From Ornithinibacillus sp. 4-3 (GTDB lineage Bacteria > Bacillota > Bacilli > Bacillales > Amphibacillaceae), in contig NZ_CP162599.1 in assembly GCF_040958695.1 (NCBI RefSeq), positions 1,770,001-1,834,000 of the forward strand: a stretch of DNA of 64,000 nucleotides, in the 5' to 3' direction. Position numbers and translations under genes: made by a program. Below are positions 7,602 through 53,012 of the stretch, piece after piece. The notes beneath the pieces were generated by a model. The model was not told the DNA's origin, searched no databases, and worked only from the letters and a program-made list of their open reading frames with translations. Position 1 is the first letter of the stretch. The number at the start of each line of letters is the position of its first letter.

Positions 7602-8852
7602 CTAGGTAGCGGTAGGTCGCTCTAGAATGCGAAATCCTTGAGATTTTGCGAATGAAATTGCTTGTTCAACCGTGATCTCACGGCTTACTGGAAGAACATC
7701 TACTGTTTGGTATAATTCCGGATTATAAGGTTCTTTCTTCTTTAAAATATGATATATTGCAGTTAATAACATTCGTGCGATGGCGATAATCGCACGTTTG
7801 TGACCGCGTCGCTTTTTTATGTTTAAGTAGCGGTTTCGAATTTCGGGATGTTTATCGCTCTTCACTACACTAAGACAACATTGTACGAGGAGAGGTTTTA
7901 AATATACTCCTGCTCTCGAAATTCTAACAGACTTTTTCTTGCCGGCACTTTCATGATTGGTTGGTGTTAACCCTGCCCATGAACATAAATGCTTGGCTGT
8001 CGGGAACACGTCCATCTTCACACCTATTTCTGAGATAATAGTAATGGCAGAAAAGATGTTTTTAATGGACGGAACAGTCAGAAGTAAATTTATTTCTTCG
8101 GTGTAGGGTTCGGCAAGAAAAAGAATCATTTTCTCAAGCTCTTGCTTCCGTTCTTGAATATCCTCATAATGTTGTTTTATCACTGCCATTTTTCCAGCCT
8201 GTTCAGGAGTGATAAAACCATCCACCGCAAGCTTTAGTTCTTCGACTTTATGTTTCATTGCCCCAAAAACTAATGGTTCGATATCAAAATCAGTATGAGT
8301 TGGATGGTCTAAAAGTTTTTGAATAATATTCATAGAACCTTTTCCAAACGTGTCACTGACAGTGTTGGCAAGTTGAATGTTAGAGACAGTTAAACTATTT
8401 TGAAAACGATTTTTTTCACTGGAACTAAAATTAGTGAGTTTATAGCGATAACGCATTAAATCTCGAAGCTGCCTGATTCGAAATGGTGGCATAAAACTTC
8501 CAGCTACCAAGTCATGTTTGAATAAATCAGCTATCCATTTCGCATCTTTCTTATCTGTTTTTTTCCCTCGAATCGCTTTCACATATTTAGGATGTGCTAA
8601 GGTGATATCACAGGAATCCTCCAATATATTAAACACAGGAATCCAGTATTTTCCTGTTGATTCCATGCAGACATCTTTACAACGATGTTCATCAAGCCAT
8701 TTGGACAGCTCTCTCAATCCCTTTGTATAGGTTGAAAAGCGACGGCTTTGATAGGAAGTAACTCCATTGGTTGTGGAAGCAATCACCGCCACCACAAAAT
8801 TTTTGTGGACATCAATACCACAACAAATAGGGTAGACAATTTTTAAAGCCAT
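7602..8852 (-). CDS. IS110-family transposase (DEDD recombinase)
   Basis: An intact 416-residue enzyme. The N-terminal RuvC-like DEDD domain shows CGIDVHKNF (first Asp), CMESTGKYW (Glu) and KTDKKDAKWIADLF (two Asp). The C-terminal Tnp domain (SWAGLTPTNHESAGKKKSV then RISRAGVYLKPLL) contains the conserved serine region. The start follows GAGAGGAG by 8 bases. Full length and absence of frameshifts suggest recent mobility. Confidence 0.95.
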   Translation of the reverse strand: MALKIVYPICCGIDVHKNFVVAVIASTTNGVTSYQSRRFSTYTKGLRELSKWLDEHRCKDVCMESTGKYWIPVFNILEDSCDITLAHPKYVKAIRGKKTDKKDAKWIADLFKHDLVAGSFMPPFRIRQLRDLMRYRYKLTNFSSSEKNRFQNSLTVSNIQLANTVSDTFGKGSMNIIQKLLDHPTHTDFDIEPLVFGAMKHKVEELKLAVDGFITPEQAGKMAVIKQHYEDIQERKQELEKMILFLAEPYTEEINLLLTVPSIKNIFSAITIISEIGVKMDVFPTAKHLCSWAGLTPTNHESAGKKKSVRISRAGVYLKPLLVQCCLSVVKSDKHPEIRNRYLNIKKRRGHKRAIIAIARMLLTAIYHILKKKEPYNPELYQTVDVLPVSREITVEQAISFAKSQGFRILERPTAT

Positions 8853-13746: not shown

Positions 13747-13767
13747 TGATAATGAGAATCGTTATCA
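13747..13767. promoter_or_regulatory. Fur box upstream of the AraC-type regulator
   Basis: TGATAATGAG and CGTTATCA halves around a central AAT form a near-perfect 21-base Fur-type palindrome 20 bases before the ATG of the AraC-family gene, so that gene should be induced by iron limitation. Confidence 0.9.
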
Positions 13768-13786: not shown

Positions 13787-14626
13787 ATGATACAAGAATA
13801 TGAAAATTTAGTGGAATTGTTTGTGAAGCATCCCATTGATGTTCTTGGTGTGTATAAAACACGATTATCACCAAATGGGATTTACAAAGGACATAGCGAC
13901 CAACCTACAACAAAATGTGGTTTTTTATTAGGTATACAAGGTGAAGCATCTTTACTTTGCAATGGTAATAAAGAAATAAAAATGGTACCTGGAAAAGTCT
14001 TATTAGGTGGATTTAATATGAGATTAGAAATGGAAACAGGAGATAGGGGTTTCGCTTATTACTTAATCCATTATCTGCCAAGTCCTTCCAATAAAGATAG
14101 AGAAAAGATGCTTCATCAGGATCCAATTTTATTTGAACCAGGGCTAGATGCTTATATGATAGAACTAATAGATGAACTACTTCAAAAAACAAAAACTCAT
14201 AAGAGTATAGAGAAGTTAGAGAAAAAAATTCTGTTTCTTCAGCTTTTACATTTAACTATAACAGCAGATAGTGATTCTCACTTACAAGAAGAAAATGAAA
14301 TTATTACTAGTGCTTATCGCTATATTCAACAATATTATATGAAGTCATTGACTTTAGAAAAATTAGCAGCACGTTATCATTTAAATGCTAAGTACTTCTC
14401 CTATTTATTTCAGCGTCATATGGGAATTTCACCAATTGCCTATCTTATTCAATATCGGATGAGTAAAGCTTATAAAATGTTGGTACAAACTTCTGATTCT
14501 ATTAGCGATATTGCTTTACGAATTGGTTACACAGATGCTTATTATTTTAGTAGATTATTTAAAAAATATCATGGAATGACACCTACTGAAACTAGAAAGA
14601 AAGTGCAGAGTGATTTAAAGAAATAA
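13787..14626 (+). CDS. AraC-family regulator, iron-responsive
   Basis: A 279-residue regulator: an N-terminal cupin-like sensing half and two C-terminal helix-turn-helices (from about residue 178: YIQQYYMKSLTLEKLAARYH, then SISDIALRIGYTDAYYFSRL and FKKYHGMTPTETR). The Fur box in its promoter and the neighbouring iron genes suggest a siderophore-sensing activator like B. subtilis Btr. GGAGG precedes ATG. Its effector and targets are inferred only. Confidence 0.85.
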   Translation: MIQEYENLVELFVKHPIDVLGVYKTRLSPNGIYKGHSDQPTTKCGFLLGIQGEASLLCNGNKEIKMVPGKVLLGGFNMRLEMETGDRGFAYYLIHYLPSPSNKDREKMLHQDPILFEPGLDAYMIELIDELLQKTKTHKSIEKLEKKILFLQLLHLTITADSDSHLQEENEIITSAYRYIQQYYMKSLTLEKLAARYHLNAKYFSYLFQRHMGISPIAYLIQYRMSKAYKMLVQTSDSISDIALRIGYTDAYYFSRLFKKYHGMTPTETRKKVQSDLKK

Positions 14627-14656
14627 TCCATCATTGAAAAAAATTATAAATAACTA

Positions 14657-14685
14657 TTGACTTCGATAATGATTATCATTATCAT
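14657..14685 (+). promoter_or_regulatory. Promoter with consensus Fur box
   Basis: A -35 TTGACT (14657-14662) and -10 TATCAT (14680-14685), 17 bases apart, enclose GATAATGATTATCATTATC (14665-14683), essentially the 19-base Fur consensus. Binding would block the promoter directly. The unit downstream is only about 55 bases long before a terminator. Confidence 0.8.
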
Positions 14686-14691
14686 TTAATT

Positions 14692-14746
14692 AACCCCCCC
14701 TTAGTTAATTAAATCCAGGACTATTATAAATAGTTCTGGATTTTTT
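14692..14746 (+). ncRNA. Candidate Fur-controlled small RNA with 5' C tract
   Basis: Transcription from the Fur-controlled promoter should begin near 14692 and run through AACCCCCCC (seven C, 14694-14700), a short AU-rich stretch, then a 14-bp hairpin (14712-14725 with 14729-14742, one G-U pair, loop ATA) and a T run ending at 14746. No open frame fits. A C-rich unpaired segment plus Fur control is the hallmark of FsrA-type iron-sparing RNAs that pair with Shine-Dalgarno sequences. The hairpin could alternatively be only the terminator of the preceding AraC-family gene. Confidence 0.5.
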
Positions 14747-14870
14747 CATGACATTAATATTTATGGAAGGAGAAAATAATAAGGAGTGTAAATGAAAGAG
14801 AAGAAATAGTCCATTCTTTTTCGGAAAAATCTCCATTTCTTATTTTTTGTTCAAATGATATATTTGTTAT
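14747..14870 (+). other. Gene-free stretch with a five-codon frame and hairpin
   Basis: AAGGAG followed by ATG AAA GAG AAG AAA TAG (near 14791) gives only five codons. A second hairpin-like structure, AAGAAATAG pairing with CCATTTCTT before a T run, ends near 14848. It may be the remains of another Fur-regulated gene or a leader. Confidence 0.35.
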
Positions 14871-14890
14871 TGATAATGAGAATCATTATC
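14871..14890. promoter_or_regulatory. Fur box upstream of flavin reductase gene
   Basis: TGATAATGAGAATCATTATC is a consensus-quality Fur operator located 43 bases before the ATG of the reductase gene. Confidence 0.92.
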
Positions 14891-14932
14891 TTCGTAAAGT
14901 TGGTTAAAGGAAATAAGGAAAGGTTGTTAATC

Positions 14933-15982
14933 ATGACAGAATGTAAAGATGTAACAATTATTGGAGGCGGATCGGCAGGACTTTATGCCGCTTTTTACAG
15001 TGGGATGAGGGATTTATCTACTCGTATTGTTGAATTCAAGCCCCAGCTTGGTGGGAAAATTCACGTTTATCCAGAAAAAATGATCTGGGATGTTGGAGGT
15101 ATAACACCTATTACTGGTGCTCAATTGATGCAGCAAATGGAAGAGCAAGCTCGTACCTTTGATCCAGAAATCATTTTAAATGAAAAGGTAGAGAAGCTTG
15201 AGAAAAATGAAAAAGATATCTTTGTTGTGACTACTAGCTCAGGAAGAGAGTATTTAAGTAGAACAGTTATTTTAGCAACTGGAGGAGGGATTGTTGAACC
15301 AATAAAATTGGATATAGAAGGGGCAGATCGGTTTGAAATAACTAATCTTCATTATACGATACAAAGCTTAGAGAGGTTTAAAGGAAAGAAAGTTGTTATT
15401 TCAGGAGGCGGAAATACAGCTATCGATTGGGCCAATGAACTAGAGCCAATTGCAGAAAAAGTTACGCTTATCTATCGTGGTGAGGAATTAAAAGCAATGG
15501 AAGCACATATTGCTTACTTAGAATCTTCTTCTGCAGATATTTATAAAAATACTACAATTGAGAGAATCATTGGAAATGAAGAAGATCACCGTATTAAAGC
15601 AATTATAACTAAAAATAGTAAAACAGGTGAGGAAATCAAATTTAAAGTGGATGATTTAGTTATAAATTACGGATATGACAGAGAATTAAAATTTATTAAA
15701 GAAAGTCCTTTACAAGTAGATCTAGAACGTGACTTCTTTGTAAAAGGTACTGCTAAAGCTGAAACAAATATTACAGGATTATATGCAGCTGGAGATATTT
15801 TAGCATTTGATGGCAAGGTTGGTTTGATTGCGGGAGCATTCACAGATGCGGCTAATGCAGTAAACCAAGCGAAGGTCTATATTGAACCTGATGCATATTC
15901 AAAAGCAAGGGTTTCTTCTCATAATGCTAAATTTGATGCTAAAAACCGTGAATTACTTTCTCATTTATATACCAAAAGCTAA
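14933..15982 (+). CDS. Ferredoxin/flavodoxin-NADP+ reductase-like flavoprotein (YcgT/YumC type)
   Basis: Start at ATG 14933 behind GGAAAGG; in-frame codons upstream overlap the Fur box and are rejected. The 349-residue protein has an FAD motif GGGSAGLYAAFYSG at about 12-25, a NADPH motif ISGGGNTAIDWANEL near 160, and a C-terminal FAD motif GLYAAGDILAF. It lacks the CxxC of thioredoxin reductase. B. subtilis YcgT is the Fur-regulated relative. Likely supplies electrons for release of iron from siderophores or haem (inference). Confidence 0.88.
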   Translation: MTECKDVTIIGGGSAGLYAAFYSGMRDLSTRIVEFKPQLGGKIHVYPEKMIWDVGGITPITGAQLMQQMEEQARTFDPEIILNEKVEKLEKNEKDIFVVTTSSGREYLSRTVILATGGGIVEPIKLDIEGADRFEITNLHYTIQSLERFKGKKVVISGGGNTAIDWANELEPIAEKVTLIYRGEELKAMEAHIAYLESSSADIYKNTTIERIIGNEEDHRIKAIITKNSKTGEEIKFKVDDLVINYGYDRELKFIKESPLQVDLERDFFVKGTAKAETNITGLYAAGDILAFDGKVGLIAGAFTDAANAVNQAKVYIEPDAYSKARVSSHNAKFDAKNRELLSHLYTKS

Positions 15983-15994
15983 GGAGGTGGAAAA

Positions 15995-17722
15995 ATGAAG
16001 GAAGTTCTTAAGCGTTTTATTTCCTATTATAAACCTTATAAGAAGCTTTTTATTTTAACTTTTGTTGCCGCAATTTTTGTTGCATTACTTGAAATTGCCT
16101 TTCCTATGATTGTAAATCGTGTGGTCGACACACTATTACCACAAGGAAATTTAACACTAATTTTCTGGGCATGTATTGGTTTACTTGTTATCTACATGTT
16201 TAACTCAGGAGCACATTATATCGTAATGTATTGGGGCCATCGATTGGGAATCAATATTGAAACAGACATGAGAGCACAATTATTTGATCATATTCAAAAG
16301 CTTTCGTTTACGTACCATGATAATAATAAAACAGGACATCTACTTTCAAATTTGACGAATGATTTATTTGAAGTTGGAGAAGTAGCACATCATGGACCAG
16401 AAGATGTATTCATTGCAATCATGACATTTATTGGCTCATTTGGAGCTATGCTATATATTAATGCGCAGTTAGCTCTAATCATGCTGATTATGGTACCTCC
16501 ACTTACCTTTATCATCGTTTACTGTCAACGTCGCATGACAAAAACAATGAAACTGATGTTTAGCAGAATGGCGAATTTTAATGCCAGGGTTGAAGATACA
16601 GTAGGAGGTATTCGATTAGTTCAAGCATTTGCAAATGAAAAACATGAAAGCAAATTATTCCATAAGGATAATTATAATTTCCGAGATTCAAAGCTAGCGG
16701 CTTATCGAGTAATGGGAATAAATGGCTCACTTACTTATTTTATTATGAGAGCAATGATGTTAGTTGTCCTATTAGCAGGAGCGCATTTTATTCTTCAAGG
16801 AAATCTTTCGGTGGGAGACTTTATGGCTTTTGTGCTATTATCAAACATTTTTTTCCGTCCGATTGAGAAAATCAATGCAATTATTGAAAGCTATCCAAAA
16901 GGGTATGCAGGCTTCAAACGTTTTCTAAGCTTGCTTGATACAGATCCAGACATTACCAATAAACCTGAGGCTGAAAATTTAAAACAAGTAACAGGGGATA
17001 TTGTTTATCATAATGTTCATTTTGGTTATAAAGATTCACAACCAATATTAAATGGGATTGATTTAACTATTAAAGCAGGAGAAACAATTGCTTTTGTCGG
17101 TCCTTCTGGAGCAGGGAAAACTACTTTATGTAGCTTATTGCCACGATTTTATGATGTGCAAGAAGGATCTATTACAATTGACGGAAAAGATATTCGTGAT
17201 GTAACACTTGCTTCTTTACGTAGTCATATTGGGATTGTGCAGCAGGACGTATTTTTATTTTCTGGAACATTACGTGAAAACATTTCTTATGGAAAGCTTG
17301 ATGCAACAGAAGAAGAGATTATAGACGCAGTAAAGCGAGCTGAATTAGCAAGCTTTGTTGAAGCTTTACCTGAAGGACTTGAAACAATTGTTGGGGAGCG
17401 TGGAGTGAAATTATCAGGAGGTCAAAAACAACGTTTATCCATCGCCAGGATGTTTCTGAAAAATCCTCCTATTCTTATTTTAGATGAAGCAACGTCAGCT
17501 TTAGATACGGAAACAGAATTATCTATTCAGCGTGCTTTGAATGAATTATCAGATGGAAGAACAACACTTGTTATTGCGCACCGATTAGCAACAATTCGTC
17601 ATGCGGATCGAATTATTGTTACAACTTCAGAAGGGATTGAAGAGCAAGGAACTCATCACCAGCTTCTCAAACAAGGAGGCCATTATGCAACACTACATAA
17701 TGCACAATACAGGTTATCATAA
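15995..17722 (+). CDS. ABC exporter, fused membrane and ATPase domains
   Basis: A 575-residue half-transporter of the MsbA/LmrA type: six membrane segments in residues 1-310, then Walker A GPSGAGKTT, signature LSGGQKQR, Walker B ILILDEATSALD and an H-loop VIAHR. AAGGAGG precedes the start, 12 bases after the reductase stop, so it shares the Fur-controlled promoter. Such exporters in iron operons may export a siderophore or act on a haem or iron complex; substrate not shown by sequence. Confidence 0.9.
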   Translation: MKEVLKRFISYYKPYKKLFILTFVAAIFVALLEIAFPMIVNRVVDTLLPQGNLTLIFWACIGLLVIYMFNSGAHYIVMYWGHRLGINIETDMRAQLFDHIQKLSFTYHDNNKTGHLLSNLTNDLFEVGEVAHHGPEDVFIAIMTFIGSFGAMLYINAQLALIMLIMVPPLTFIIVYCQRRMTKTMKLMFSRMANFNARVEDTVGGIRLVQAFANEKHESKLFHKDNYNFRDSKLAAYRVMGINGSLTYFIMRAMMLVVLLAGAHFILQGNLSVGDFMAFVLLSNIFFRPIEKINAIIESYPKGYAGFKRFLSLLDTDPDITNKPEAENLKQVTGDIVYHNVHFGYKDSQPILNGIDLTIKAGETIAFVGPSGAGKTTLCSLLPRFYDVQEGSITIDGKDIRDVTLASLRSHIGIVQQDVFLFSGTLRENISYGKLDATEEEIIDAVKRAELASFVEALPEGLETIVGERGVKLSGGQKQRLSIARMFLKNPPILILDEATSALDTETELSIQRALNELSDGRTTLVIAHRLATIRHADRIIVTTSEGIEEQGTHHQLLKQGGHYATLHNAQYRLS

Positions 17723-17738: not shown

Positions 17739-18195
17739 ATGCTTAAAATACTACATATTGCTGGTGGTGTTGTTTTTCTAGATGGTAAATTGATTGATTC
17801 ATAAATATTCAACCCGTCAAATTGATCAAGAGATGGCGGTATTACCCAAAGTACCTGAGGCACTAGAAGAGCTAAAGATTAGAGAGCATGTTGCTTATGG
17901 GCGTTATTCTCACCAGCTAGCAATGTTAGAAGTGTTTCAGGAATTAAATAAACAAGAGAAGCGAACCATTATTATGGTTATCCATGATTTAAATCATGCA
18001 GCTCGTTTCTCTGATTATATGGTTGCTATTCGCAATGGCTGAATTATAAAGGAAGGTACTCCTAATGAAGTAATGAGAGCAGAGGTTCTTCAAGAGGTTT
18101 TCCAAATTGATGCAGAGGTTGTTGCTGACCCACGCACAAATAAACCAGTTTGTATTACTTATGATTTACTAACAAAGTCTGCAATAAAACAGTAA
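17739..18195 (+). pseudogene. Decayed siderophore-uptake ABC ATPase (FecE/YusV-like)
   Basis: Residual coding sequence of a ferric-siderophore import ATPase. GGVVFLDGK (about 17762) is separated by a frameshift near 17786 from HKYSTRQIDQEMAVLPKVPEA (17801 on); after YGRYSHQ the frame jumps straight to LNKQEKRTIIMVIHDLNHAARFSDY, so the signature and Walker B are deleted; an in-frame TGA follows at 18040, and the tail IIKEGTPNEVMRAEVLQEVF ends at 18195. Walker A is also gone. At least four lesions, so nonfunctional. Confidence 0.88.
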
Positions 18196-52710: not shown

Positions 52711-52743
52711 AAAAGCCGCCAGTATCAGGTACTGGCGGCTTCA
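52711..52743 (+). terminator. Terminator of the mgtC-like gene
   Basis: AGCCGCCAGTA pairs with TACTGGCGGCT across a TCAGG loop; a short TT tail only. Confidence 0.75.
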
Positions 52744-53012
52744 CGAAATTTGCGGCGAAAGACCATGGGGTTCACATCCGCATGTAATACGTTGTCCTTC
52801 GTCTTATGCAAATCAGCTCATCGCAGAGATAAGTATAGCATTATTTTGGTTAAATTGCTATACCACTTATATTCTTAATAATACTCTTTGTTGTTTCCCT
52901 GTAAAATAACTGCATACTACAGCTTTACATATAAGTATCCTATCCATAGTTCATAAATATACGCTATAAACTGATTAAGAATTACAAAGGGCAGACTACT
53001 GCTCTTTTTTTT
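52744..53012. other. Gene-free stretch with structured GC island and an orphan terminator
   Basis: 52744-52830 is GC-rich and self-complementary: TGCGG (52751-52755) pairs with CCGCA (52778-52782) around GACCATGGGGTTCACAT. It shares two words (AATTTGCGGC, ACATCCGCA in reverse complement) with the island at 43240. After an AT-rich interval, AAAGGGCAG-ACTA-CTGCTCTTT plus T run (52986-53012) is a good terminator with no gene upstream. A small RNA or conserved repeat is possible. Confidence 0.4.

Follow-up and report, generated by a model that had tools for sequence, protein, structure and literature searches.

A stretch of 64,000 nt from Ornithinibacillus sp. 4-3 (here called the window) carries, between the gene for an AraC-type regulator and that for an FAD/NAD(P)-dependent oxidoreductase (the reductase), a promoter with a Fur box that runs into seven cytosines and then an intrinsic terminator (Table 1). 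At the level of sequence, this is a Fur-controlled transcription unit without a gene. We give an even chance to the reading that the unit is an orphaned Fur promoter shut by a terminator, whose ~55-nt transcript would be a by-product with no role in trans. At low iron, Fur would leave its box and RNA polymerase would start at ~14692; the transcript would stop at the hairpin near 14746, producing an RNA of ~55 nt whose 5' C7 is free. The promoter would most likely have belonged to a siderophore gene of an AraC-controlled locus. Two origins can be envisaged. In the first, a siderophore-binding-protein gene adjacent to the AraC gene would have been deleted, with the promoter and terminator left behind. 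In the second, an old upstream promoter of the reductase would have been cut off by the terminator. Both origins alike leave a promoter without a gene. If the unit is only a relic, it illustrates that a promoter and a terminator without an open reading frame do not alone make an sRNA gene.

Table 1. Features of the AraC-reductase region, in window coordinates
Feature	Position	Strand	Remarks
AraC gene's own Fur box	13748-13766		17/19
AraC-type regulator, 279 aa	13787-14626	+	Pfam HTH_18/HTH_AraC
Half-operator A, AGAAATAATCCATCAT	14619-14634	+	At AraC stop codon; adjoins promoter
Promoter, TTGACT-17-TATCAT	14657-14685	+	TTGACT 14657-14662, 17-nt spacer, TATCAT 14680-14685
Fur box 1	14665-14683	.	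18/19 on +, 19/19 on -
Predicted ~55-nt RNA, begins AACCCCCCC	14692-14746	+	Start inferred from -10 position; no start codon inside
C7 run	14694-14700	+	At predicted start, +3 to +9
Intrinsic terminator, 15-bp hairpin and T6	14711-14746	+	Predicted fold
Full AraC-type operator B, two half-sites	14802-14846	+	Top score of the window
Fur box 2	14872-14890	.	18/19
Reductase	14933-15982	+	Pfam Pyr_redox_2
ABC exporter, membrane and ATPase domains	15995-17722	+	Domain match
Ferric-siderophore-type ABC ATPase fragment	17794-18042	+	FecE model positions 172-214 of 255

Architecture of the unit

The promoter (10/12) ranked first among 14 promoter-like sites in a scan of positions 14000 to 15400. Fur box 1 is placed within its spacer, as the original prediction had proposed, and overlaps the -10 element as well. 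Eight places in the genome lie within two mismatches of the Fur consensus on either strand, two of them sharing one promoter, and Fur box 1 is the sole perfect box among the eight. As judged by eye from their flanks, the other places lead to the AraC gene, the reductase, two binding-protein genes (both confirmed by Pfam; L123 and L125) and an ATPase gene, while the place at 481689 is uncertain. There (481689-481734; L127 1501-1546), a Fur-box-like palindrome ~200 nt upstream of an ABC ATPase gene is directly followed by a small hairpin and a T run.

The hairpin at the end of the unit has 15 predicted pairs, rather than the 14 first reported, with a loop of 3 and a predicted stability of -17.3 kcal/mol that none of 200 shuffled sequences equaled (z, -5.2). 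Its T6 occupies 14741-14746. A scan for consensus terminators did not list the hairpin at 14711-14743 among its sites, which counts against the unit; we think that the scan missed it because the T run is partly taken up in the stem. The message of the AraC gene is probably also ended by this hairpin, which begins 85 nt past the AraC stop codon. The scan listed no terminator-like site between the AraC gene and the reductase, and no further hairpin was found there by eye. These observations would suit a plain AraC terminator that insulates the reductase, with the promoter contributing little. We judge this improbable as the full explanation, since it leaves unexplained a promoter that is close to consensus and carries the genome's best Fur box, and six of the other Fur places lead directly to iron-related genes as judged by eye, with 481689 again uncertain.

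No ATG, GTG or TTG occurs within 14692-14746, in line with the initial view that no coding frame fits. Two short frames were put down to chance: a mini-ORF (MKEKK) near 14792 and, on the minus strand, one of 13 codons that crosses Fur box 1.

A binding-protein gene is absent next to the AraC gene

Btr and feuABC of B. subtilis exemplify an AraC-type regulator beside siderophore-uptake genes, and the locus analyzed here resembles this type in having an AraC gene, an operator motif and a Fur box in order. It differs in that the binding-protein gene is absent and a full operator now precedes the reductase. To place this difference, relatives of the AraC protein were collected. The protein has no close relative in its family (best E value, 5.7e-35). 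Among 398 genomes of the class, 7 matches were obtained at an E value of 1e-45, one being the protein itself, and among 296 genomes of the order of G403, 19 matches were obtained at 1e-50, five of them already counted. In total, 20 distinct relatives from 12 genera were examined, a count that leaves out the more distant family loci L063-L066 (about 30%).

In all 20 loci, the AraC stop codon, a Fur box and a siderophore-binding-protein gene follow in this order, with the Fur box (15-19 matches) 44-192 nt past the stop codon. The next long ORF is the binding-protein gene in 18 of the 20, each matching PF01497 (18/18); in the remaining two (L254 and L258) the frame is interrupted and PF01497 is still matched. 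The 20 loci are not independent, because 7 come from one genus. In the window, the unit takes the place of the binding-protein gene, which is absent.

Several further observations support the deletion of such a gene, the first origin proposed above. In L090 the reductase is immediately preceded by a PF01497 gene, and in L083, which holds the closest reductase relative (81%), the gene upstream is an AraC-type helix-turn-helix domain fused to PF01497. The promoter of the unit shares 30 of 33 positions with the promoter of another PF01497 gene, located elsewhere in the same genome. Downstream, the ATPase remnant (17794-18162) lacks its N-terminal part and gives a broken match when compared with intact ATPases from this genome. 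Half-operator A, which lacks its second half, is also in line with such a loss.

Other points argue against a relic. The AraC relatives are only 37-43% identical and come from other orders, and this was counted against the loss of a gene. With eight binding-protein queries, six from the AraC relatives and two from the same genome, nothing left of such a gene was detected in the gap, even at E values up to 10. A decaying relic need not have kept its promoter, Fur box and terminator whole, as is the case here. By eye, the Fur box of the AraC relatives follows a different, activator-type promoter, and for this reason the promoter of the unit is not a simple copy of theirs.

AraC-type operator sites

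The AraC relatives share a double site upstream of the Fur box, with the consensus GGAAATAGTCCATCTTAAAATCGGGAAATTCTCTATTTGCAT, derived from 11 of the 20 loci. The operator profile was built from these 11 sites; nine were left out, because of shorter spacing (L170-L173 and L261-L263), near repetition of L169 (L256) or a TCTAT variant (L257). Half-operator A has the best first-half-site score among 127,968 window positions, while its second half is absent (second-half score, -17). It lies 38 nt from Fur box 1, compared with 62-64 nt in 10 of the 11 aligned relatives and 69 nt in one, a mismatch that also speaks against the relic. The second-ranked half-site in the window (8003-8018) lies within a transposase gene and is probably a chance match.

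Operator B scores 23.1, against 17.2 for the next site on both strands of the window and at most 14.1 in 500 shuffles of the gap. The relatives' own operators, from which the model was built, score 31-43, making operator B a weaker version. The first TCCAT of operator B lies 62 nt from Fur box 2, which matches the 62-64 nt of the relatives. As far as can be read from sequence, operator B probably makes the reductase the present target of the AraC regulator, which may formerly have worked next to Fur box 1.

Promoters and leaders of related reductase genes

The reductase, which we take to be ferredoxin-NADP-reductase-like, has relatives at an E value of 1e-80 or better in 120 of 159 family genomes. 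The 30 top loci, minus the own locus and two that were not parsed, left 27 for comparison. In most of these, no PF01497 gene precedes the reductase. Two relatives that are 80% and 76% identical (L084 and L086) carry a promoter of the build TTGACA-17-TATCAT with a Fur box, and the distance from the Fur box to the reductase is 397 nt in L084 and 257 nt in L086, compared with 268 nt in the window. The equal build makes the second origin possible, that is, an old reductase promoter cut off by the terminator. Under either origin, the reductase would now be served by its own operator B and Fur box 2.

The same promoters, as well as the hairpin and T run behind the Fur box at 481689, would fit an attenuated reductase leader, in which transcripts from the promoter of the unit sometimes read through the hairpin. 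This we regard as very improbable. A Fur box within ~160 nt of the reductase, like Fur box 2, occurs in 17 of the 27 loci; the leader of L086 has no terminator-like site and that of L084 none on the reductase strand, and the reductase leaders align at their ends only. In L084 (2548-2944, minus strand), the ~400-nt leader between Fur promoter and reductase shows a long-range helix enclosing a CCCCC stretch.

The C7 run and a possible iron-sparing RNA

The C7 run, which the promoter had been predicted to enter directly, is indeed present next to the predicted start. It is the sole plus-strand run of at least six cytosines in the window, and C7 has 6 plus-strand and 6 minus-strand matches in the 3.69-Mb genome. 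As inspected by eye in 10 stretches, the remaining C7 places are copies of repeated elements, coding sequence or unrelated intergenic sites. For the 30 nt flanking each of the eight Fur boxes on both sides, the expected number of C7 runs is about 8e-4, a value computed post hoc with the site already seen. Because C7 is this rare in the genome, its placement is unlikely to be chance, as is the arrangement of promoter, C7 and hairpin; any function of the C run is putative. For debris left by a lost gene, the run is too rare to be comfortable.

The Gram-positive iron-sparing sRNAs FsrA and IsrR share a common logic and have separate ancestry. Here, CCCCCCCUU is unpaired in the predicted fold, and such an unpaired C-rich stretch with CCCCU is a trait of the FsrA type; for a second such trait, a Fur-repressed promoter, the unit has a predicted promoter with a Fur box, through which repression would act. 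FsrA (RF02273) and the unit thus have in common Fur control (for the unit, the box only), an unpaired C-rich stretch and a terminator hairpin. They differ in that FsrA, according to PMC12871923, is an RNA of 84 nt with a helix at each end that pairs via CCCCA/CCCCU, whereas the unit would give ~55 nt without a 5' helix and has no covariance match. For IsrR of Staphylococcus aureus, likewise Fur controlled (for the unit, as predicted), PMC9410917 gives CRR1 as four to seven C and presents C runs of 4-7 as thought to single out Shine-Dalgarno sequences; the C7 of the unit falls within this range. IsrR is conserved throughout its genus and combines three C-rich regions and three stem-loops with two Fur boxes, while the unit has one C run and one Fur box at its promoter, and its conservation was not found in the genomes searched.

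These likenesses make it possible, if doubtful, that the unit encodes a minimal iron-sparing sRNA whose 5' C7 would pair with G-rich ribosome-binding sites (RBSs) in low iron and lower the translation of iron enzymes as FsrA and IsrR do; such an RNA may itself stem from an orphaned promoter. The Fur box, the unpaired C7 adjoining the terminator hairpin, the lack of a start codon and the rarity of C7 all favor it. The more specific proposal of a new, possibly species-specific ~55-nt iron-sparing RNA, newborn from a gene-less Fur promoter, we hold to be slightly more doubtful still. A Fur promoter running into a terminator would be a plausible birth route for an iron-sparing RNA. A C7 at +3 to +9 would invite slippage, lengthening the C run. 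If AraC-assisted transcription began near 14656, the longer RNA as modeled would form a UUAAUUAA hairpin whose loop holds most of the C run.

Search for conserved copies

The FsrA covariance model had no match in 61 genomes, including that of strain 4-3, at an E value of 0.001 or better with strict filters, under which weak matches are lost; the B. subtilis control was detected. An Rfam search at E values up to 10 returned nothing credible. The only Rfam match of the window at the gathering score is the BsrF small RNA (52715-52824, minus strand). In a nucleotide search of the 61 genomes with the unit, the top-ranked among the matches listed, beyond the own copy, cover the Fur box only.

The pattern ATTATCATT-N4..30-CCCCCC gave 26 matches in 19 of the 159 family genomes, all of which were scored. 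A strong Fur box accompanied the pattern in the own genome and at one other locus (L046 of G157; 17/19), the rest reaching at most 14. L046 was rejected as a conserved unit, as its Fur box serves an oppositely read gene, by eye one for a binding protein, whose promoter does not lead into the C run. Thus, for the ATTATCATT pattern, which is blind to C runs behind Fur boxes that lack this exact sequence, no C6 run follows such a promoter in any of the 159 family genomes besides the own. The conservation of the C run, on which the original prediction was to be judged, was not seen in the sampled genomes, a weak test given that it includes one other genome of the genus, in which no match to the AraC gene at 1e-15 or to the reductase at 1e-80 was found. 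A limited literature search found no earlier description of the unit.

Complementary ribosome-binding sites

A genome-wide count of AAGGGGG followed by 3-13 bases and ATG gave 81 occurrences, and the reversed control gave 25. From 30 loci and 44 stretches, excluding two places lettered as insertion sequence (IS) copies and the unit itself, we obtained 69 starts whose frames span 60 codons or more; removal of repeats left 64, and removal of alternative starts of one gene left 61, of which 9 are cut at the end of a stretch. An Fe-S domain was found by Pfam in 2 of the 61 (Fer2_4 in L174 and Fer4 in L243), and the others include genes for ribosomal protein L16, ribosome recycling factor, SmpB and chorismate synthase. 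The expected targeting of iron-using enzymes by the C tract found no support among these best-complementary sites, which show no bias toward such enzymes; judged from sequence, the set does not resemble an iron regulon, with the limitation that it holds exact complements only and FsrA-like pairing is imperfect. Of the proposed iron-sparing RNA, the gene-less Fur unit and a C run unlikely to be chance are retained at the sequence level, while the iron-sparing function finds no backing in an FsrA match, conservation or target bias.

Predicted duplexes with AAGGGGG-type RBSs reach -13.3 to -21.9 kcal/mol, in favor of the sRNA, whereas pairing of C7 with model GGAGG sites is poor (about -7), which tells against it. 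Within the locus, the predicted RBS duplex of the ABC exporter has -16.3 kcal/mol, compared with -8.4 at the reductase and -5.8 at the AraC gene. Among the C7/G7 places, the longest stretch seen to complement the C run exactly was UAAGGGGGGG, 53 nt before a gene for a MOSC-domain protein (L113).
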